A stretch of 64,000 bases of DNA from Candidatus Nitronauta litoralis. Lineage in GTDB: Bacteria; Nitrospinota; Nitrospinia; Nitrospinales; Nitrospinaceae. Location: positions 3,162,001-3,226,000 of the forward strand of contig CP048685.1 of NCBI GenBank assembly GCA_015698285.1. The letters run 5' to 3'. The notes beneath the pieces were generated by a model. The model ran no database searches. It had not been told where the DNA came from and saw only the letters and a list, made by a program, of their open reading frames with translations. The position numbers and the translations under genes were made by a program. Each line of letters starts with the position of its first letter. Within the stretch, counting starts at the first letter, position 1. Below are positions 3,536 to 47,656 of the stretch, one piece after another.

Positions 3536-4738
3536 TGTACAAAGCTAGTATTTGCCGAACAGTGGCCCTTGTTGGGTATTGGATTTAGGCGGCTAATTTA
3601 GCCGTCTTTTTTATTTTTTGCTCCTGTGTTTTATCTGGTTTTGGAAGACCTTCCTTGAAGACGGTTTCCGGTGTCCTGCCGTTCATATTTCTGCCCTGAT
3701 GAGGACGCTTGGTGTTGTAGTGGATGAAGTAGGTGTCGAGGTCCTTCTGCATTTCCTCAACAGACTCGTACCATTTCTTTCTTCCCATGATGCGGAAGTG
3801 CTCGTCAAGCAGGGTTCTGTGAAGGCGTTCAACAAAGCCGTTGCTCTGGGGACGACGGACTTTTGTGGTGCGGTGTTCGATCTGTTCTAACTGCAAAAAC
3901 AGTTCGTAAGGGTGGCGGTCTTTTCGTCCACAAAACTCTCTGCCGTTGTCACTCAAGATGGTCGCGATCCTGGCATCGTGAGATTCAAAGAACGGGAGTA
4001 CCTCGTTGTTAAGCGTCTGGACTGCGGTAACCGGAAGCTTGCTGGTGTAGAGCCTTCCCCATGCATACCGGCTGTAGCAATCGATGACAGACTGGAGGTA
4101 CACACGGCCTACGCCTTTCAAGGTTCCGACTATGAAGGTGTCCACCGCCACCAGGTCACCGGTGTGCCGGGTTTCGATGTGGCGGTCTCGAAACTCCGGA
4201 CTGAACCTTTCTAACGCACGAATCTGATCTTCGGTCAGGTCGATCTTCTTGCCCTTGATCGATTGTTCCAATCTCAGGAATCGTTGATGTTTCTGCAAGA
4301 GGTTGTGACGGCTCCACACACCCCGGACGCCGCCAGAGGAAACGTTGATTCCGGAAAGCATCAGGTCCTGGGCCACCCGCAGGCAACCATGAGAAGGATG
4401 TTTCAGGGAATAGTCCAGAACCGCCTTCTCAATCTCCTCAGAGACCCGGTTGGGATGGGGGCTTTTGGCACCAGGCAGACGGTCGATGAGACCCTCTGCA
4501 CCATAGGTCTGGTAGTTGCGGCGTATCTCGTAGAACTGGGTGCGGGAATAGCCCATTATCTTGCAGGCTTTACTGATATTGCCCAGTTCACCTGCCAGCT
4601 CTAGCATGGACAGTTTCCTTCGTGCTACCTTGTTCACGGTGGTCATTGGATTCTCCTTTTCGAGTAAATTGGTAAGCTTCGACACTTACAATTTACCCAA
4701 TCAAGGGCCAATGACCACTTTCTCTTCAAAAATGATCA
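3536..4738 (-). mobile_element. IS481-family insertion sequence, apparently intact
   Basis: The left boundary is fixed by comparison: the bases from TGTACAAAGCTAG at 3536 onward recur at 44816, while the sequence before differs. The right end is less sure. An inverted counterpart of the internal GTGGCCCTTG-TTGGGT block lies at about 4698-4715, and a matching TGATCA-type tip would end near 4738. One full-length transposase gene fills the element on the minus strand. I could not see a clear target-site duplication. A truncated second copy of the left end is in the 44.8-kb island. Confidence 0.8.
3585..4646 (-). CDS. IS481-family DDE transposase
   Basis: The 353-residue product catalyses cut-and-paste or copy-out transposition of the surrounding element. 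The N-terminal third holds helix-turn-helix segments ('NISKACKIMGYSRTQFYEI'), and the C-terminal rve-type integrase domain shows the DDE triad in 'DLVAVDTFIVG', 'ILSDNGREF' and 'NGFVERLHRTL'. The ATG at 4646 is preferred because AAGGAG sits six bases upstream; an in-frame GTG at 4685 would add 13 residues without a ribosome site. No frameshift or early stop is seen, so the enzyme is probably functional. It is oriented toward the left end of the element. Confidence 0.92.
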   Translation of the reverse strand: MTTVNKVARRKLSMLELAGELGNISKACKIMGYSRTQFYEIRRNYQTYGAEGLIDRLPGAKSPHPNRVSEEIEKAVLDYSLKHPSHGCLRVAQDLMLSGINVSSGGVRGVWSRHNLLQKHQRFLRLEQSIKGKKIDLTEDQIRALERFSPEFRDRHIETRHTGDLVAVDTFIVGTLKGVGRVYLQSVIDCYSRYAWGRLYTSKLPVTAVQTLNNEVLPFFESHDARIATILSDNGREFCGRKDRHPYELFLQLEQIEHRTTKVRRPQSNGFVERLHRTLLDEHFRIMGRKKWYESVEEMQKDLDTYFIHYNTKRPHQGRNMNGRTPETVFKEGLPKPDKTQEQKIKKTAKLAA

Positions 4739-41741: not shown

Positions 41742-42118
41742 CAGGGTGTAATGTTGTTTGTTTTGCTATCTAGATTATAAGGGAACAACCCCTTTTGAAA
41801 CAAATAATTGAAAGAATAAAACTTATGAGAAAGAATACTTTATATTAATTCATATAACCATTTTAAGGAAAAAGTACTTAAATTGAAAAATAGGGAATAA
41901 ATATGGAAATTAAAATTTTGGGCATAAAAATGTATTGAATTGTATTTTATCCGAAGTATTAGATTGGGTATGAAGAGTGTGTTTTAATTTCGGTAAGCAA
42001 TATTTATTTTTCAAGTAAAATTGAATTTTTATAAGGAGTGAGGGATATTTTTTATTGACAATAATTGGATTGGGGAACAATAATTAGCGATCCACTAAAA
42101 TTTAGATGAAAATTTAAA
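41742..42118. other. Strongly AT-rich leader of the acyltransferase cassette
   Basis: 377 bases without a gene. Composition changes abruptly from the neighbouring repeat-protein gene, marking the likely left edge of an acquired segment. A good promoter is present (listed next). A ribosome-like AAGGAG at about 42033 has no usable frame after it. I see no IS end or tRNA on this side. Confidence 0.5.
42055..42084 (+). promoter_or_regulatory. Candidate sigma70 promoter for the acyltransferase-methyltransferase cassette
   Basis: Perfect TTGACA (42055-42060), an 18-base spacer and AATAAT (42079-42084, 5 of 6). Transcription would begin near 42091, about 28 bases before the first start codon. No lux-box-like palindrome of the usual 20-bp form was seen at it. 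Confidence 0.55.
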
Positions 42119-43225
42119 ATGCCGAGATTTGAAGAAAAAGAAATTTCAAGAAATATTGAAATTGATCCAATAAAAGTTGTTACTGCAGTTAATAAAGAAT
42201 CTAGAATGCTGCATGCTACAAAGAATATTAAGCAATGGTGTCATTTGTATTATTTAAGAAGAAAAAATGATGGCGGAGTAATAAAGAAAGATGATTTGGT
42301 GGAAGCCCTAAATCTAGTTAATCAAGATTTAAGATGCAAAAATTACAAAATCATTTTTATTGCTATGGGATACTCGATTGAAGAGGTTTCTGAGGCAATA
42401 GATAGTTTCGAAAATATTAAAGAAAGTAGCCGGGTAGAAATTGTTGTTTCATCAATCCCGGAATTTCATGGAGAAGATGGGGGAAGAAACTCTGCTTCAA
42501 TCCTTAGGGCGTCTGCAGTAACCTCTACAACTGACTTGTTTTCAATGTTAAGAAAAGCCTTTATTAAGCAAAGGGTCAAAGGTTGGGTGAAGATTAGGCC
42601 TCTTCAAGGTAAAAAAGAGTTGAAAGACTATTTTTCCTTGCGATATGACGTATGGAATAATTTGGGGTATATACCAAAGGAAAAAAATGCTGATATATTG
42701 AAAATGGAACTAGATTTTTCCGACAGATTTTCATATCCATTAGGCGCTTTCGATCAAAATCAAAATATTATTGGGTGCGCTAGATTAGTTTTTCCAATGC
42801 ATCAAGTGCAATTATATTATGAAAAATATGTTGATGAAATTGTAAGAGAAGCAAATGATCCTGTTTTAAGTCAAAACTTTCAAGTTCTTGAGAAGTTTCA
42901 GCATCCTTTCGATATTTTGGAATCATTTAATGGGTTCGATGACTATTACTCCTCGATGGTAAAAAGAAAAATAAATAAAGCTGAGGTTAGTAGGGTGATT
43001 GTTCATCCCGATTTTAGAGGAAGATGGTTGGGGGAGGTTTTAGTTGATTCGTTAATTGATACAGCATATTGTTCTTTTCAAATTAAAGAACTTTTTCTAG
43101 CATGTGAAAGTAAAAATGAGGGGTTTTATTCAAAATGTGGATTTGAAATCCTAGAAGGGTTGAGTTGTGAACGATTCGCAAATGTAAATGTCCCGGCAAT
43201 TGCAATGGGCCTGAAATTATTTTGA
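42119..43225 (+). CDS. LuxI/FeeM-like N-acyl synthase with GNAT fold and unknown N-terminal domain
   Basis: 368 residues, strongly AT-rich codons. Residues about 150-340 look like an acyl-transfer enzyme of the FeeM/LuxI group: 'LRYDVWNNLGYIP' (Arg175, Trp179), 'MELDFSD' (Glu197, Asp199, Asp202) and 'GAFDQNQNIIGCARLVFP' (Arg222), matching the R..VW, ExDxxD and RL pattern of N-acyl amino acid and homoserine lactone synthases. A typical GNAT motif A follows, 'SRVIVHPDFRGRWLGEVLVD'. The first 140 residues are unassigned, with a strand-helix-strand part ('YKIIFIAMGYSIEEVSEAID'). Predicted reaction: acyl group from acyl-ACP to an amine, giving an N-acyl product. It starts from ATG with a weak ribosome site and is three bases from the methyltransferase gene. 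Confidence 0.65.
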   Translation: MPRFEEKEISRNIEIDPIKVVTAVNKESRMLHATKNIKQWCHLYYLRRKNDGGVIKKDDLVEALNLVNQDLRCKNYKIIFIAMGYSIEEVSEAIDSFENIKESSRVEIVVSSIPEFHGEDGGRNSASILRASAVTSTTDLFSMLRKAFIKQRVKGWVKIRPLQGKKELKDYFSLRYDVWNNLGYIPKEKNADILKMELDFSDRFSYPLGAFDQNQNIIGCARLVFPMHQVQLYYEKYVDEIVREANDPVLSQNFQVLEKFQHPFDILESFNGFDDYYSSMVKRKINKAEVSRVIVHPDFRGRWLGEVLVDSLIDTAYCSFQIKELFLACESKNEGFYSKCGFEILEGLSCERFANVNVPAIAMGLKLF

Positions 43226-43228
43226 GCG

Positions 43229-44740
43229 ATGAATAGTTTTTTTAATAGCTCTATTTTTAACCCCGACCGCGTAATTGGTTTTATTGTTTTTTTAATTGCT
43301 TCATGGGGGTCTGTAAATGCTTTGATCCATGAGCTGACGATTCAATATTGGTTGCCTATCCTTTTGCTATTTGTTTTTTCAATTATTTTAATAAGGGGTT
43401 TGGAATTAAAAAATTTGAATCTTCCTTTGGGCACCAGTGTTACTTTTTTTAGGGGAATTGATAGGCCTCAAAAGGTACTTAGGCCTGAAGAGGTTGTAGT
43501 CAGAAAAGCTTTTTCAGAGAACAAAAGAATTCCTGGATTGGACGCGTCTCCGTTACACCTTTTAAATGAGGGATTTAATTTTAAGACTTTACCTACAGCT
43601 GATCCGTTGACACCCATGTATGTTCTGGATTCCAAGTTTAGGATATTAGATTGGAATCAGGCATTGTCGTTGGCATTTGATCAAACTATGGAGGGGAATA
43701 GATGGAAAAGTGTATTGGAGTGGACTTACTTTTTGGACAACTATAAAGAGGTGATTGAGCATGGAATAAAAGTGTTTGGGGATAAGGAAAACCTGCCTTC
43801 AATTGATATTGAAAATATTACATATACTAGTAAGCGCTATGCAAGACTTAATGGCATTAAGAGAGCTTATAGAATCCCTAAAGATCCGAGTTTGAATGAG
43901 GCAGACAATACTTCCCAAACGCGAGGTTGGCTAATTACTATTGAGTTAATGTTCGATGATCCTCATAAAAAAAATCATTATTTTATGGACTTGGTCCATT
44001 TATTAAAAGAATCTTTGGTGTGGTCGGAATATTCTTTGTCTTATGATCAAATTTTAATGAATACAAAAGTATATCCAAATCTTTTGTATAGTATTTTGGG
44101 GGAGAATAATGAACCGGTAGAATTGATTTCATCCAGCGCTAAAGTTTTAGATATGGGTGCAGGAACTGGGAATTTGACTAGTTTGTTAGCTTCGGAAAAA
44201 GGCTCAAATCGGTTGATAGTATCGATTGATAACAATGAAATGATGTTAAATATATTGCGTGAAAAATGTAAAGCACACTTAAGAAAGGATTCGCTTGGGC
44301 CAGGAATAATTCCAGTAAAACAAGATATTACCTCTCTATTTGGCCTAAATGATAATTTTTTCGATTATGTTTTGTCAAATAATGTTATTTACAGTTTGGA
44401 AGAAAAATCTGTTGTAGATTGCTTGTCTGAAGTTAAAAGGGTGCTTAAGCCTGGAGGAGAAATAAGGATAACTGGTCCAAGAAAAGACGCAAATTTAAAG
44501 AAGTTGTTTAGGGCAATTAGAAACGATTTAGAAAAGTCAGGGAAATTCGAGGATTTAAGGGAAAGTTTTGAGCATGTCCAAAATATAAATAATGAATATT
44601 TAGATTTGCTTCTCAGGAGGTATTCTAAGGACCATTTAATTGAACTCTTAATATCCGCTGGATTTGATGCCCCATATTTTGTAAATGAGAGAGTTTATGA
44701 AGGGCAAGGAATATTAATCTGTTGCAAGAAGTCAATTTAA
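43229..44740 (+). CDS. Membrane-anchored PAS-SAM methyltransferase fusion
   Basis: 503 residues, AT-rich like its neighbour. Two N-terminal membrane helices (about 13-32 and 39-56), a linker, a PAS-like region (about 128-245, 'PMYVLDSKFRILDWNQALS'), then a class I SAM methyltransferase (about 300-420): motif I 'VLDMGAGTGNLTSL', the acidic ribose contact 'VSIDNNEMM', 'FFDYVLSNNVIYSL' and 'VLKPGGEIRITGP'. A helical tail 'YSKDHLIELLISAGF' is typical of small-molecule (type 11) methyltransferases. It begins three bases after the acyltransferase stop, so the two are one transcript. Likely role: sensing something at the membrane and methylating the acyl product or a related small molecule; this is inference. 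Confidence 0.7.
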   Translation: MNSFFNSSIFNPDRVIGFIVFLIASWGSVNALIHELTIQYWLPILLLFVFSIILIRGLELKNLNLPLGTSVTFFRGIDRPQKVLRPEEVVVRKAFSENKRIPGLDASPLHLLNEGFNFKTLPTADPLTPMYVLDSKFRILDWNQALSLAFDQTMEGNRWKSVLEWTYFLDNYKEVIEHGIKVFGDKENLPSIDIENITYTSKRYARLNGIKRAYRIPKDPSLNEADNTSQTRGWLITIELMFDDPHKKNHYFMDLVHLLKESLVWSEYSLSYDQILMNTKVYPNLLYSILGENNEPVELISSSAKVLDMGAGTGNLTSLLASEKGSNRLIVSIDNNEMMLNILREKCKAHLRKDSLGPGIIPVKQDITSLFGLNDNFFDYVLSNNVIYSLEEKSVVDCLSEVKRVLKPGGEIRITGPRKDANLKKLFRAIRNDLEKSGKFEDLRESFEHVQNINNEYLDLLLRRYSKDHLIELLISAGFDAPYFVNERVYEGQGILICCKKSI

Positions 44741-44774
44741 TTTGTGAGTGCCGCGAAATTGGTTAACAGTCAGG

Positions 44775-44813
44775 CTGTGGCCTTGTGGAAAATGCGGAGC
44801 ATTTTCCCACAGG
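44775..44813. repeat. REP-like palindrome, shortened copy
   Basis: CTGTGGCCTTGTGGAAAATGC, GGA loop, GCATTTTCCCACAGG. It is related to the longer palindrome at 46263: the left arms agree except at four positions, and the right arm lacks about eight inner bases. It lies two bases outside the left end of the IS481 remnant and just after the methyltransferase gene, where it could also act as a transcript end. Confidence 0.6.
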
Positions 44814-44815
44814 GT

Positions 44816-44920
44816 GTACAAAGCTAGTATTCACCGGACAGTGGCCCTTGTTGGGCATGATGTTTTGGCGGCTATTTTAGCCGTTTTTTTTGTTTTTGCT
44901 CCTGTGTTTTATCCGGTTTT
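44816..44920 (-). mobile_element. Remnant of an IS481-family element (left end only)
   Basis: About 105 bases from TGTACAAAGCTAG on match, with scattered differences, the left end and transposase 3' end of the element at 3536-3640. The match stops abruptly at the inverted repeat of the IS256-family element, which therefore seems to have landed in or replaced the rest. The copy has diverged, so it is older than or distinct from the intact one. Confidence 0.8.
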
Positions 44921-45049
44921 GGGATACCGTACGATATTTTTCGCACATTTGATTTGGTCGTATTGGCTGGAAAAAGGAAAGCCCTCGATTGGGTCTGTAT
45001 ACTTCGTTTTGGAAGAAGCCAAAAACAGACTTACCAAGGAGGACTTAAA

Positions 45050-46255
45050 ATGGAAGCGAAGTCTAGGGAAGACGTAGCGTCAAATATTGTATCGATATAT
45101 GAAGGTAAAATCCAGAGTCATGTGAACGGGATAATGCGTTCGACGGTTGAGGAAACGCTGAACGGTTTTCTGGATGCGGAGGCGGACCGGTTGTGTGGTG
45201 CCTCCAAGTATGAGAGGTCGGAGGGTCGGAAGGAAACGTGGGCCGGCCATTATGATCGGAAGCTTCTGACGCAGGCGGGCGAGATGGACCTGAAGGTACC
45301 GAAACTGCGGACGTTTACGTTCGAGACGGCGATCATTTGGCGGTAACAGAGGCGTGAATCGTCAGTTGAGGAAGCCTTGATGGAAATGTATCTGGCAGGT
45401 ATGTCCGTTCGTCGAGTGGAGGACATCACTCAGCAGTTATGGGGAACTCGTGTGTGTCCGGGTACTGTCAGCAAGTTAAGCCAGAAGGTTTATAAAAAGA
45501 TCGAGGAATGGCGAAACCGTAAGATCGAAGGGGAGCATCCGTATGTGTATCTGAACGGGATTTGTTTGAAACGCAGTTGGGGAGGTGAGGTGAAGAACGT
45601 TTCTGTACTGTTGGCCATCGGTGTGAACCGACAGGGATACCGGGTAGTGCTGGGTGTCTGCGAGGGGGCGAAGGAAGACAAGGCCGGATCAAGCAACTTT
45701 TTGCGACACCTTAAGGAGTGTGGCCTTAAGAGCGTGAAGCTGCTCGTCTCGGATCTGTGCCTGGGGCTGGTGGAATCGCTTCATGACTTCTATCCGGATG
45801 CAGATCCTCAACGATGCACGGTACACTTTTATAGCAATGTAATTTCAGTTGTGCCTCGAAACAAGATGAAAGAAGTGTCGAACATGCTGAAGGCAATCCA
45901 TGCTTAGGAGGATCGTCAGGCGGTTCTGGAGAAGATTAATGCGGTTGCGGCAAAACTAATGACAATGAAACTGTCGAAAGCATTGGAGAAAGTGAAGACC
46001 GGAGCGCATTAAACGTTATCGTATTACAACTTTTTCAGAGAGCACTGGCCGAATATCCGGACGAATAATCCGCTGGAGCGCGTCCTGCGTGAGATCAGGC
46101 GCCGGACGCGAGTGGTTGGGCGTTTCCCAGATGGACAGTCCGCATTGATGCTGGCGGCGGCCAGGCTTATGCACGTCGCCGGGACCAAGTGGGGAGCGAG
46201 GCGGTACATCAACATGGACCACTTCAAGGAAATGGAGAATCAGAAAGTCGCCTGA
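45050..46255 (+). pseudogene. IS256-family (mutator-type) transposase, inactivated
   Basis: Starts at ATG 45050 behind AAGGAGG. The first 98 codons run to TAA at 45344; a frameshift near 45350 moves the rest to another frame ('SVEEALMEMYLAGMSVRRVED' region at about 45366-45430), which is cut by TAG at 45905 and TAA at 46010 before the true end at 46253. Conserved parts remain: 'QQLWGTRVCPGTVS', 'LLVSDLCLGLVES' and 'RTNNPLERVLREIRRRTRVV' with the catalytic Glu. The first catalytic Asp ('VYLDG') has also become Asn ('VYLNG'). The element cannot move by itself. Confidence 0.92.
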
Positions 46256-46262
46256 TCCTGAT

Positions 46263-46311
46263 CTGTGGATTTGATGGAAAACGCTTTAGCGTTTTCCATC
46301 AAATCCACAGG
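46263..46311. repeat. Perfect 22-bp-arm palindrome, REP-like
   Basis: The left arm begins CTGTGGATTTGATGG and ends AAAACGC (46263-46284); after a TTTA loop the exact complement runs from 46289 to 46310, then G. Such a long perfect hairpin is exceptional in this window. It lies between the transposase pseudogene stop and the right inverted repeat of the IS256 element, and is related to the shorter palindrome at 44775. Confidence 0.85.
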
Positions 46312-46381
46312 TCCAACAACAGGCCTGATTGAGGACTTTCCAATATCAAAAGTGCGAAACTTTCTTGACACTACCAAATTG

Positions 46382-47656
46382 TTAATTTGACTTGTTTGGT
46401 GGATTGGGTAGAGAGACTTTAAATTCGCTGGGTTCACCCTCCCAATGGTTATAAAAGACCAGATCCTTTAGAGACAGGCGGTGGGCCCAACCTTTCTTTT
46501 GCAACATGGGTTCACTGTAAAAGCCTTCACAATGTCCCATGCAAAGATAAGCGACCAGTTGCAGGTGTTCAGGGATCCTCAAGTCATTTTTCAGCTTCTG
46601 CTTTTCCAAGATAGAAACCCAACCCACAGCCAGTCCTTCTGCCCGTGCCGCAAGCCACAGGTTCTGTACGGCACAAGAGGTGCTGAACAAATCGGTTTCG
46701 GGCATTGTGTTCCGTCCCAATACATTTGGACCCATTCGGGATGAATCGCAAGTGACACAGATATTGAGCGGGGCATCCAGAATGCCCTGGAGTTTCATGG
46801 ACTGATACAATTCTTTCTTGTCTCCTTCAAACTTTTCTGCTCCTTCCGCATTAGCCTGTTTGAAATTCTCATAAATCTTTTGTTTAACAGTTGGGTCATC
46901 GATAATGATGAAATTCCAGGGTTGCATGAAACCCACCGACCCTGCGTGATGCGCTGCGTCCAGAACTCGTCCGACCACTTCAGGGTGTATGGGGTCTGAT
47001 AAGAAATGCCGCATGTCCCGCCGATTATAAATAGCGTTGTAGACTCCCCGTTTTTCAGTTTGAGGGAAGGAATGGGGTGTGGTGCTCGAAATGAAGTTGC
47101 CAGAACGAGACGGGGGCTGTTTGACTGTTACGGGCAAACCTGACACCAGCATCACCACTTCATCGAAAGCGACAGCGAAACGTTGATTGATATGGCCGGC
47201 GAGATCACGAAACTGGCGACTCATTTCATTATCCGGAACAATGCCGGAGCCAACTTCATTGGTTACCACAGCTACTGTTCCTGGACATTGGGCGATCGTA
47301 GCAATTAATTGATCCGCTTTTTGAAAAATAGATTGTTCCGAATGTCCCTTCATCATCAGGTTAGTCACCCAAAGGGTGAGGCAGTCCAATACGATGAGAT
47401 TATCTTGTGACATTTCTTTTTCAAATATCGGGCTAAGCTCCAACGGCTCCTCAATTGTTGTCCAATCCTTACTCCGTTCTACGCGGTGGCGGACAATACG
47501 CTCGCTCATTTCTTCATCGAGCGCTTCGGCGGTAGCCAGCAAAGACTTTTTTCCACTGAAAATTTTAAAGCGGTTGAGCACGTATTGGCTTTTTCCGCTC
47601 CGACAACCGCCAGTGATGAGTAATTTGAGACCTGATGCCATAGGTTTAAAATCCAT
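46382..47656 (-). CDS. cobU: CobU-BluB fusion (adenosylcobinamide kinase/GTP guanylyltransferase joined to 5,6-dimethylbenzimidazole synthase)
   Basis: 424 residues. N-half (about 8-180) is CobU: P-loop 'ITGGCRSGKSQYV', His57 in 'RHRVERSKDWTTIEEP' for GMP attachment, and 'DCLTLWVTNLM'. It activates cobinamide to GDP-cobinamide. C-half (about 203-415) is BluB, a nitroreductase-fold enzyme that cleaves reduced FMN to dimethylbenzimidazole: 'IYNRRDMRHF' with Asp214 and 'GFMQPWNFIII'. The fusion puts lower-ligand synthesis and nucleotide-loop activation in one chain. The gene overlaps cobS by 11 bases; ATG 47641 is an alternative start. Last gene of the riboswitch-led operon; the IS256 element abuts its 3' end. 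Confidence 0.92.
   Translation of the reverse strand: MDFKPMASGLKLLITGGCRSGKSQYVLNRFKIFSGKKSLLATAEALDEEMSERIVRHRVERSKDWTTIEEPLELSPIFEKEMSQDNLIVLDCLTLWVTNLMMKGHSEQSIFQKADQLIATIAQCPGTVAVVTNEVGSGIVPDNEMSRQFRDLAGHINQRFAVAFDEVVMLVSGLPVTVKQPPSRSGNFISSTTPHSFPQTEKRGVYNAIYNRRDMRHFLSDPIHPEVVGRVLDAAHHAGSVGFMQPWNFIIIDDPTVKQKIYENFKQANAEGAEKFEGDKKELYQSMKLQGILDAPLNICVTCDSSRMGPNVLGRNTMPETDLFSTSCAVQNLWLAARAEGLAVGWVSILEKQKLKNDLRIPEHLQLVAYLCMGHCEGFYSEPMLQKKGWAHRLSLKDLVFYNHWEGEPSEFKVSLPNPPNKSN

Follow-up and report, generated by a model that had tools for sequence, protein, structure and literature searches.

A horizontally acquired gene pair encoding a GNAT-fold acyltransferase and a probable membrane-anchored methyltransferase in Candidatus Nitronauta litoralis

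Two adjacent and strikingly AT-rich genes in the genome of Candidatus Nitronauta litoralis raise the question of where such a pair came from and what its products might make together. A preliminary description, drawn from the letters of the DNA, had proposed that the genes form a foreign cassette in which a LuxI/FeeM-like acyl synthase is joined to a membrane-bound methyltransferase carrying a PAS-like domain. Here we examine the pair, whose products we term P1 and P2, within the whole 64,000-nucleotide stretch analysed (the window), in the remainder of its own genome (G000), in related taxa and in broader collections of genomes and mobile elements. The pair is real, foreign and intact, and is without known relatives among the genomes searched. 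Tentatively, and at rather less than an even chance, we read it as an operon making a small modified amphiphile.

An insertion of foreign composition

Both ORFs occur exactly where they had first been placed, separated by three bases (GCG), and both are long and uninterrupted in very AT-rich DNA (Table 1). The G+C content of the pair is 0.340, compared with a genome mean of 0.479 (sd 0.030; 2.6-kb segments over 2.4 Mb), and only 0.025% of those segments reach a value as low; GC3 is 0.26 for P1 and 0.32 for P2, against 0.50 and 0.49 for the flanking cob genes, so that the reported departure from neighbouring composition is borne out. The near-consensus promoter noted upstream is present, matching at 11 of 12 positions, but sites of this kind are no commoner in the region (14) than in shuffled sequence (12.2 +/- 3.3), and the candidate therefore carries no evidential weight. 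Rfam searches revealed no RNA in the cassette region.

Table 1. Features of the locus (window coordinates)
Feature	Coordinates	Strand	Remarks
Insertion between EF-hand-like repeat gene and cobU-like gene	41742-46381	.	4.6 kb; synteny and sequence compared with congeners
Sigma-70-like promoter candidate	42055-42084	+	TTGACA-18-AATAAT, 11/12
P1 ORF	42119-43225	+	368 aa; GNAT-fold acyltransferase, N-terminal domain unassigned
P1 N-terminal region	42119-42580	+	residues 1-154, no family match
P1 GNAT/acyl-synthase domain	42581-43222	+	R175, E197/D199/D202, R222-L223, E289-V-S-R292, loop R300-G-R-W-L-G305
P2 ORF	43229-44740	+	503 aa; probable membrane-anchored class I SAM methyltransferase
P2 two hydrophobic segments	43271-43408	+	Kyte-Doolittle; helical in a low-confidence model
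P2 possible PAS-like/MmyB-like domain	43607-43957	+	~residues 127-243; sub-threshold match, suggestive
P2 methyltransferase domain	44126-44536	+	residues ~300-436; motif I LDMGAGTGN intact
Relics of dispersed repeats	44736-44928	+	44814-44928 is an IS481-like element end
Degenerate IS256-like element	44923-46375	+	transposase broken by stops

Two congeneric genomes (G002:C78 and G001:C99) lack the cassette, and in them the EF-hand-like and cobU-like genes that flank it lie ~0.1-0.25 kb apart, which identifies the DNA at 41742-46381 as an insertion in this lineage; loss from both congeners is a less likely alternative. The empty site upholds the view of a foreign cassette, and the P1/P2 pair is horizontally acquired. 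Relics of insertion sequences form the downstream part of the insertion, and further copies of both elements occur elsewhere in the genome, including an intact IS481-like copy at window positions 3585-4685 and another copy of the IS256-like element at 1214965-1216434 (G000), while the P1 and P2 genes each occur once. The IS family names derive from inspection and from a 'transposase' annotation in one plasmid match. The flanking cobU-like gene (window 46382-47656, minus strand) itself seems, on inspection, to encode an adenosylcobinamide kinase fused to a BluB/nitroreductase-like domain; most of the genomes of the family and order that were checked contain a relative of nearly full length.

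Several other AT-rich tracts of this genome lie beside the same IS elements, and such DNA tends to be conflict-related. An AT-rich pair of DUF2326 (PADLOC PDC-M68B, 177 bits) and SMEK-domain genes at 1013662-1017784 (G000, L141) adjoins an intact IS481-like transposase and resembles a defence island of the ABC-three-component type. A Dsr1-type SIR2 system at 1466312-1470059 (G000, L204), near an IS256 relic, is split into two overlapping ORFs of 308 and 942 aa that match the same Dsr1 profile with 180 and 421 bits. Beside the same relics, the loci at 1994652-1995904 and 2217131-2223127 (G000) hold an AT-rich pair of PIN-like and possible DUF4145 genes, and immunity-like genes following Rhs repeats. 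The DUF2326/SMEK and Dsr1 genes were called by PADLOC and Pfam, and the PIN-like gene, the possible DUF4145 gene and a possible HEPN gene of another such island by inspection.

Homologues of the pair, of the N-terminal 150 residues of P1 and of residues 1 to ~245 of P2 were sought in roughly 1,190 genomes, plasmids, phages or viral contigs, and none was found. P1 had no relative in the other 76 genomes of the phylum, and matches of P2 within the phylum were confined to its methyltransferase half (~residues 247-502). A domain-wide set of 387 genomes contained no full-length relative of P1; searches with P1 and with the first 294 residues of P2 retrieved no full-length relative from 398 genomes of the phylum of an alphaproteobacterium or from 395 genomes of another phylum (Bacteroidota, as read from one locus). 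All matches of the P1 sequence elsewhere were to ordinary GNATs, covering residues ~230-365 only, and viral contigs, plasmids and phages, interrogated with patterns and tblastn, gave generic GNAT or methyltransferase domains only. A pattern search spanning 84,980 species, a method of low sensitivity, likewise returned no homologue. The alignments steering it were artificial, with the catalytic motifs kept and the remainder randomised, and their rows are not real proteins; they retrieved a generic GNAT of viral origin (L077) and a single distant match in an alphaproteobacterium (L079), which is a different fusion. Another candidate, L029, proved to be a spurious frame on the opposite strand of another ORF. 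In its own right, the L079 ORF (7065-8486, alphaproteobacterium UBA7314) encodes a haem-oxygenase-like iron-enzyme region (PF14518, 21.8 bits, cut-off 28.9) fused to an Acetyltransf_5/FeeM-like domain with AEVSRLIVHPDYR, and is an unusual candidate N-acyl synthase.

P1 as acyl synthase or ordinary acetyltransferase

Judged by its profile matches, P1 is a GNAT-fold acyltransferase of uncertain substrate. PF00583 matched at 35 bits (cut-off 20.7), in agreement with the fold first assigned to it, as did PF13508 at 32.5 bits and PF13673 at 24.8 bits (above cut-off). The HMM comparison of P1 with the FeeM, LuxI and GNAT families divided the original proposal: the FeeM profile (PF21926) was matched above its gathering cut-off of 27, with 32.4 bits for the whole protein and 35.0 for the C-terminal part, and PF13444 with 24.1 bits (cut-off 22.4), whereas LuxI (PF00765) gave no match at E<=1 where real LuxI enzymes score 70-199 bits. 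Control proteins scored lower on PF21926: 13.7 bits for an ElaA-like GNAT, 19.9 for a RimI-like GNAT and none for a cyanobacterial GNAT, with none, 22.0 and 26.3 for LuxI proteins. The best NCBIfam match was TIGR03694, at 26.9 bits below a cut-off of 112. Exosortase (PF09721), which other members of the family have, is absent from G000 and from both congeners (G001, G002), so that the association of related synthases with exosortases does not extend to P1.

The N-terminal residues 1-154, as had been surmised, match no Pfam family above cut-off; PDB searches gave nothing useful for this region and recovered the GNAT core only. A single-sequence AlphaFold model of P1 was unusable (pLDDT 41), its least bad part being this same N-terminus, which was modelled with low confidence (pLDDT 50-74) as alternating strands and helices.

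Residues Arg175, Glu197, Asp199, Asp202 and Arg222 stand at the positions originally given for the R..VW/ExDxxD/RL pattern of acyl synthases, and P1 carries in addition the motif Glu289-Val-Ser-Arg292 (E-x-S-R), which the preliminary description had not included. As reference we assembled a diverse set of seven genuine LuxI proteins encoded on plasmids; the LuxI sequence used as query served only to retrieve them. Ten residues are invariant in all seven (R25, W35, E44, D46, D49, R69, L70, P72, E100, R103), and P1 has eight of them in place (R, E, D, D, R, L, E, R), Trp35 being missing and Pro72 lying one residue late. The full signature, in a relaxed form, is present in all seven LuxI proteins, in none of 5,421 genome ORFs and in 14 of 100,000 shuffles of P1. 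By hhalign, P1 is colinear with the entire LuxI domain (E 0.007), compared with 0.24 for a cyanobacterial GNAT and 0.58 for an unrelated protein. The pattern is nevertheless unspecific. An ElaA-like GNAT (L016), found as a match of P1, shares several of the invariant residues, carries R..VF and ExDxxD, scores the same 24.1 bits on PF13444 and aligns more closely than P1 with that LuxI profile (E 4e-4). The pattern and PF13444 thus assign P1 to a sub-branch of which ElaA-like acetyltransferases are also members, and do not demonstrate use of acyl-ACP.

The foremost alternative draws on this likeness: P1 would belong with the ordinary acetyl-CoA GNATs (ElaA/Acetyltransf_10 type) and carry an additional N-terminal domain, P2 would be a small-molecule methyltransferase with a loose connection to it or none, and the pair would form a generic modification operon, serving for example self-protection or metabolite tailoring. 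The best single-sequence matches of P1 are indeed ordinary GNATs, PF00583 and PF13673 are both matched above cut-off, and P1 keeps the GNAT-like RGxxxG and FYxKCGF stretches that LuxI is without. Yet P1 attains 35 bits on PF00583 where the controls reach 55-78, while its FeeM score exceeds theirs; the ElaA-like control has Lys at the site of Glu289; and the CoA pyrophosphate loop (Q/RxxGxG/A) is altered in P1 to RGRWLG, with Trp303 in place of the central glycine, a kind of deviation that some active GNATs also display. P1 further holds a long insertion of ~40 residues between R222 and E289. Weighing the FeeM score, Glu289, Trp303 and this insertion against the retained GNAT stretches and the ordinary-GNAT matches, we lean, by a narrow balance, towards an acyl-ACP-type synthase for P1, and regard the generic modification operon as doubtful but a serious contender. 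More generally, R..V[FW]/ExDxxD/RL and even PF13444 fail to separate acyl-ACP synthases from ElaA-like GNATs, and PF13444 matches should accordingly not be taken for acyl-ACP enzymes; the E-x-S-R site and the FeeM profile are better separators.

P2 and a proposed joint function

The two membrane helices attributed to P2 are supported by a Kyte-Doolittle scan, which placed N-terminal hydrophobic segments at residues 15-33 and 42-60, and the protein is probably membrane-anchored. Its identification as a class I methyltransferase is likewise sound, with 64.5 bits on PF13847 (cut-off 27) and an intact SAM-binding motif I (VLDMGAGTGN); NCBIfam scores were all far under their cut-offs, the best being CpaM at 52.7 of 180 bits. 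The PAS-like domain fared less well. No PAS family in Pfam matched P2, and nothing exceeded a cut-off in this region, the nearest profile being MLTR_LBD (PF17765) at 13.1 of 26.3 bits, the first half of which aligned with residues 127-170. A single-sequence AlphaFold model was unusable (pLDDT 37), its order of strands and helices being PAS-like. The domain is suggestive, a lead and no result. MltR has a PAS-like ligand-binding fold and was crystallised with a fatty acid (myristic acid) bound (PMC3406030).

Our preferred reading, held with the reserve expressed above, is that of a horizontally acquired two-gene operon whose enzymes would produce a modified amphiphile of small size. P1 would move an acyl group, most likely from acyl-ACP, onto a small-molecule amine such as an amino acid, in the manner of FeeM and LuxI, its N-terminal domain probably binding the acceptor or a partner. 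With its two N-terminal helices as anchor, P2 would use S-adenosylmethionine to methylate a lipid or small molecule, possibly the product of P1, to give for example an N-acyl amino acid methyl ester or an N-methylated acyl-amide, and the PAS-like domain preceding its methyltransferase may serve to sense a fatty-acyl ligand or to hold it. We infer the use of acyl-ACP, the substrate and product, the coupling of the P1 and P2 steps and the role of the sensor; a methylated N-acyl amino acid would be the most specific reading of the product.

In favour of this operon we counted the adjacency and shared foreign composition of the genes inside an insertion missing from congeners and, for its components, the FeeM score, the LuxI-like residues, the E-x-S-R site and altered CoA loop of P1, and the intact motif I of P2. 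Counted against the acyl synthase were the ElaA-like control, the retained GNAT stretches, the unmatched PF00765 and the ordinary GNATs as best plain matches; against a single joint pathway, that no second occurrence of the pair was found in the genomes, plasmids and phages searched. A fuller version we consider unlikely: here a LuxI/FeeM-like synthase, its N-terminal domain new, would make an acyl-amino compound, and a membrane methyltransferase bearing a PAS-like domain for acyl sensing would methylate it, the two forming an undescribed biosynthetic unit for a signal such as an N-acyl amino acid methyl ester; if true, this would join a methyltransferase to a lipid sensor. N-acyl amino acid methyl esters are made in roseobacters, where the synthase genes were still unidentified in 2024 (PMC11580390).

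Remaining alternatives and comparison with known systems

A role in conflict is a rival worth considering, given the conflict-type genes in AT-rich islands near the same IS relics: the cassette would serve defence or immunity, its enzymes modifying a host or phage molecule or making an alarm molecule. When islands are ranked by AT content over 2.4 Mb, the top seven include four that are no more than 3 kb from these relics (by random placement, 0.29 expected and 0 of 2,000 trials), and these four encode the DUF2326/SMEK pair, the split Dsr1 SIR2 system, a possible HEPN protein and the pair of PIN-like and possible DUF4145 genes. This is guilt by location only, however. PADLOC gives no match for P1, and the membrane anchor and FeeM-like profile suggest no known defence; P2 as the MADS defence protein Mad2 was rejected, since its match (64 bits over residues 304-448 only) is generic, arsenite-methyltransferase-type controls scoring 62-77. 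We judge such a role improbable. Decay of acquired DNA that is no longer used would accord with the occurrence of the pair in one genome only and with the broken IS elements adjoining it, but both long AT-rich ORFs are intact and keep their catalytic motifs, which makes this reading more improbable still. A quorum-sensing unit, with P1 as an AHL-type synthase and P2 as a methylating sensor, draws on the LuxI-like residues of P1 and the PAS-like hint in P2 but is very improbable, given that PF00765 is unmatched, that no LuxR-type gene lies beside the pair and that Trp35 and Pro72 of LuxI are not conserved in place. A text search for LuxR and PEP-CTERM over 2.4 Mb found nothing; its pattern was possibly too strict, and the result was not counted.

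Returning to the acylating and methylating operon, its two proteins may be set beside the systems they most resemble. P2 shares a SAM-binding domain with class I methyltransferases of the UbiE/CpaM/ArsM type and differs from them in its membrane anchor and an unmatched linker domain of 240 residues. Its weak likeness to the ligand-binding domain of MltR/MmyB is offset by a score of 13 bits against a cut-off of 26 and by the lack of an HTH domain. The PEP-CTERM/exosortase-associated acyltransferases of TIGR03694 match P1 without gaps over residues 154-228, the full score and the genomic setting differing as described. ElaA-like GNATs (PF13673) have in common with P1 a core of R..VF, ExDxxD, GxARL and RGxxxG/FYxKCGF; unlike P1 they lack both the Glu of the E-x-S-R site and the N-terminal domain, and their loop is short, and the ElaA-like control outscores P1 by far on PF13673 and PF00583. 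LuxI (PF00765) resembles P1 in eight of the ten invariant residues and in the colinear alignment, whereas P1 has the insertion before E-x-S-R, retains the C-terminal motifs of GNATs and has no LuxR neighbour. The N-acyl amino acid synthase FeeM (PF21926, PDB 2G0B), the family whose gathering cut-off P1 exceeds, has a GNAT domain of similar size but is without the extra 150-residue N-terminal domain, and at the active site has Glu94-Val-Val-Gln97 where P1 has E-V-S-R (PMC9654057). The corresponding E-x-S-R site of LasI is Glu101-Leu102-Ser103-Arg104 (PMC9654057), and it is to this site that Glu289-Val-Ser-Arg292 of P1 is equivalent.
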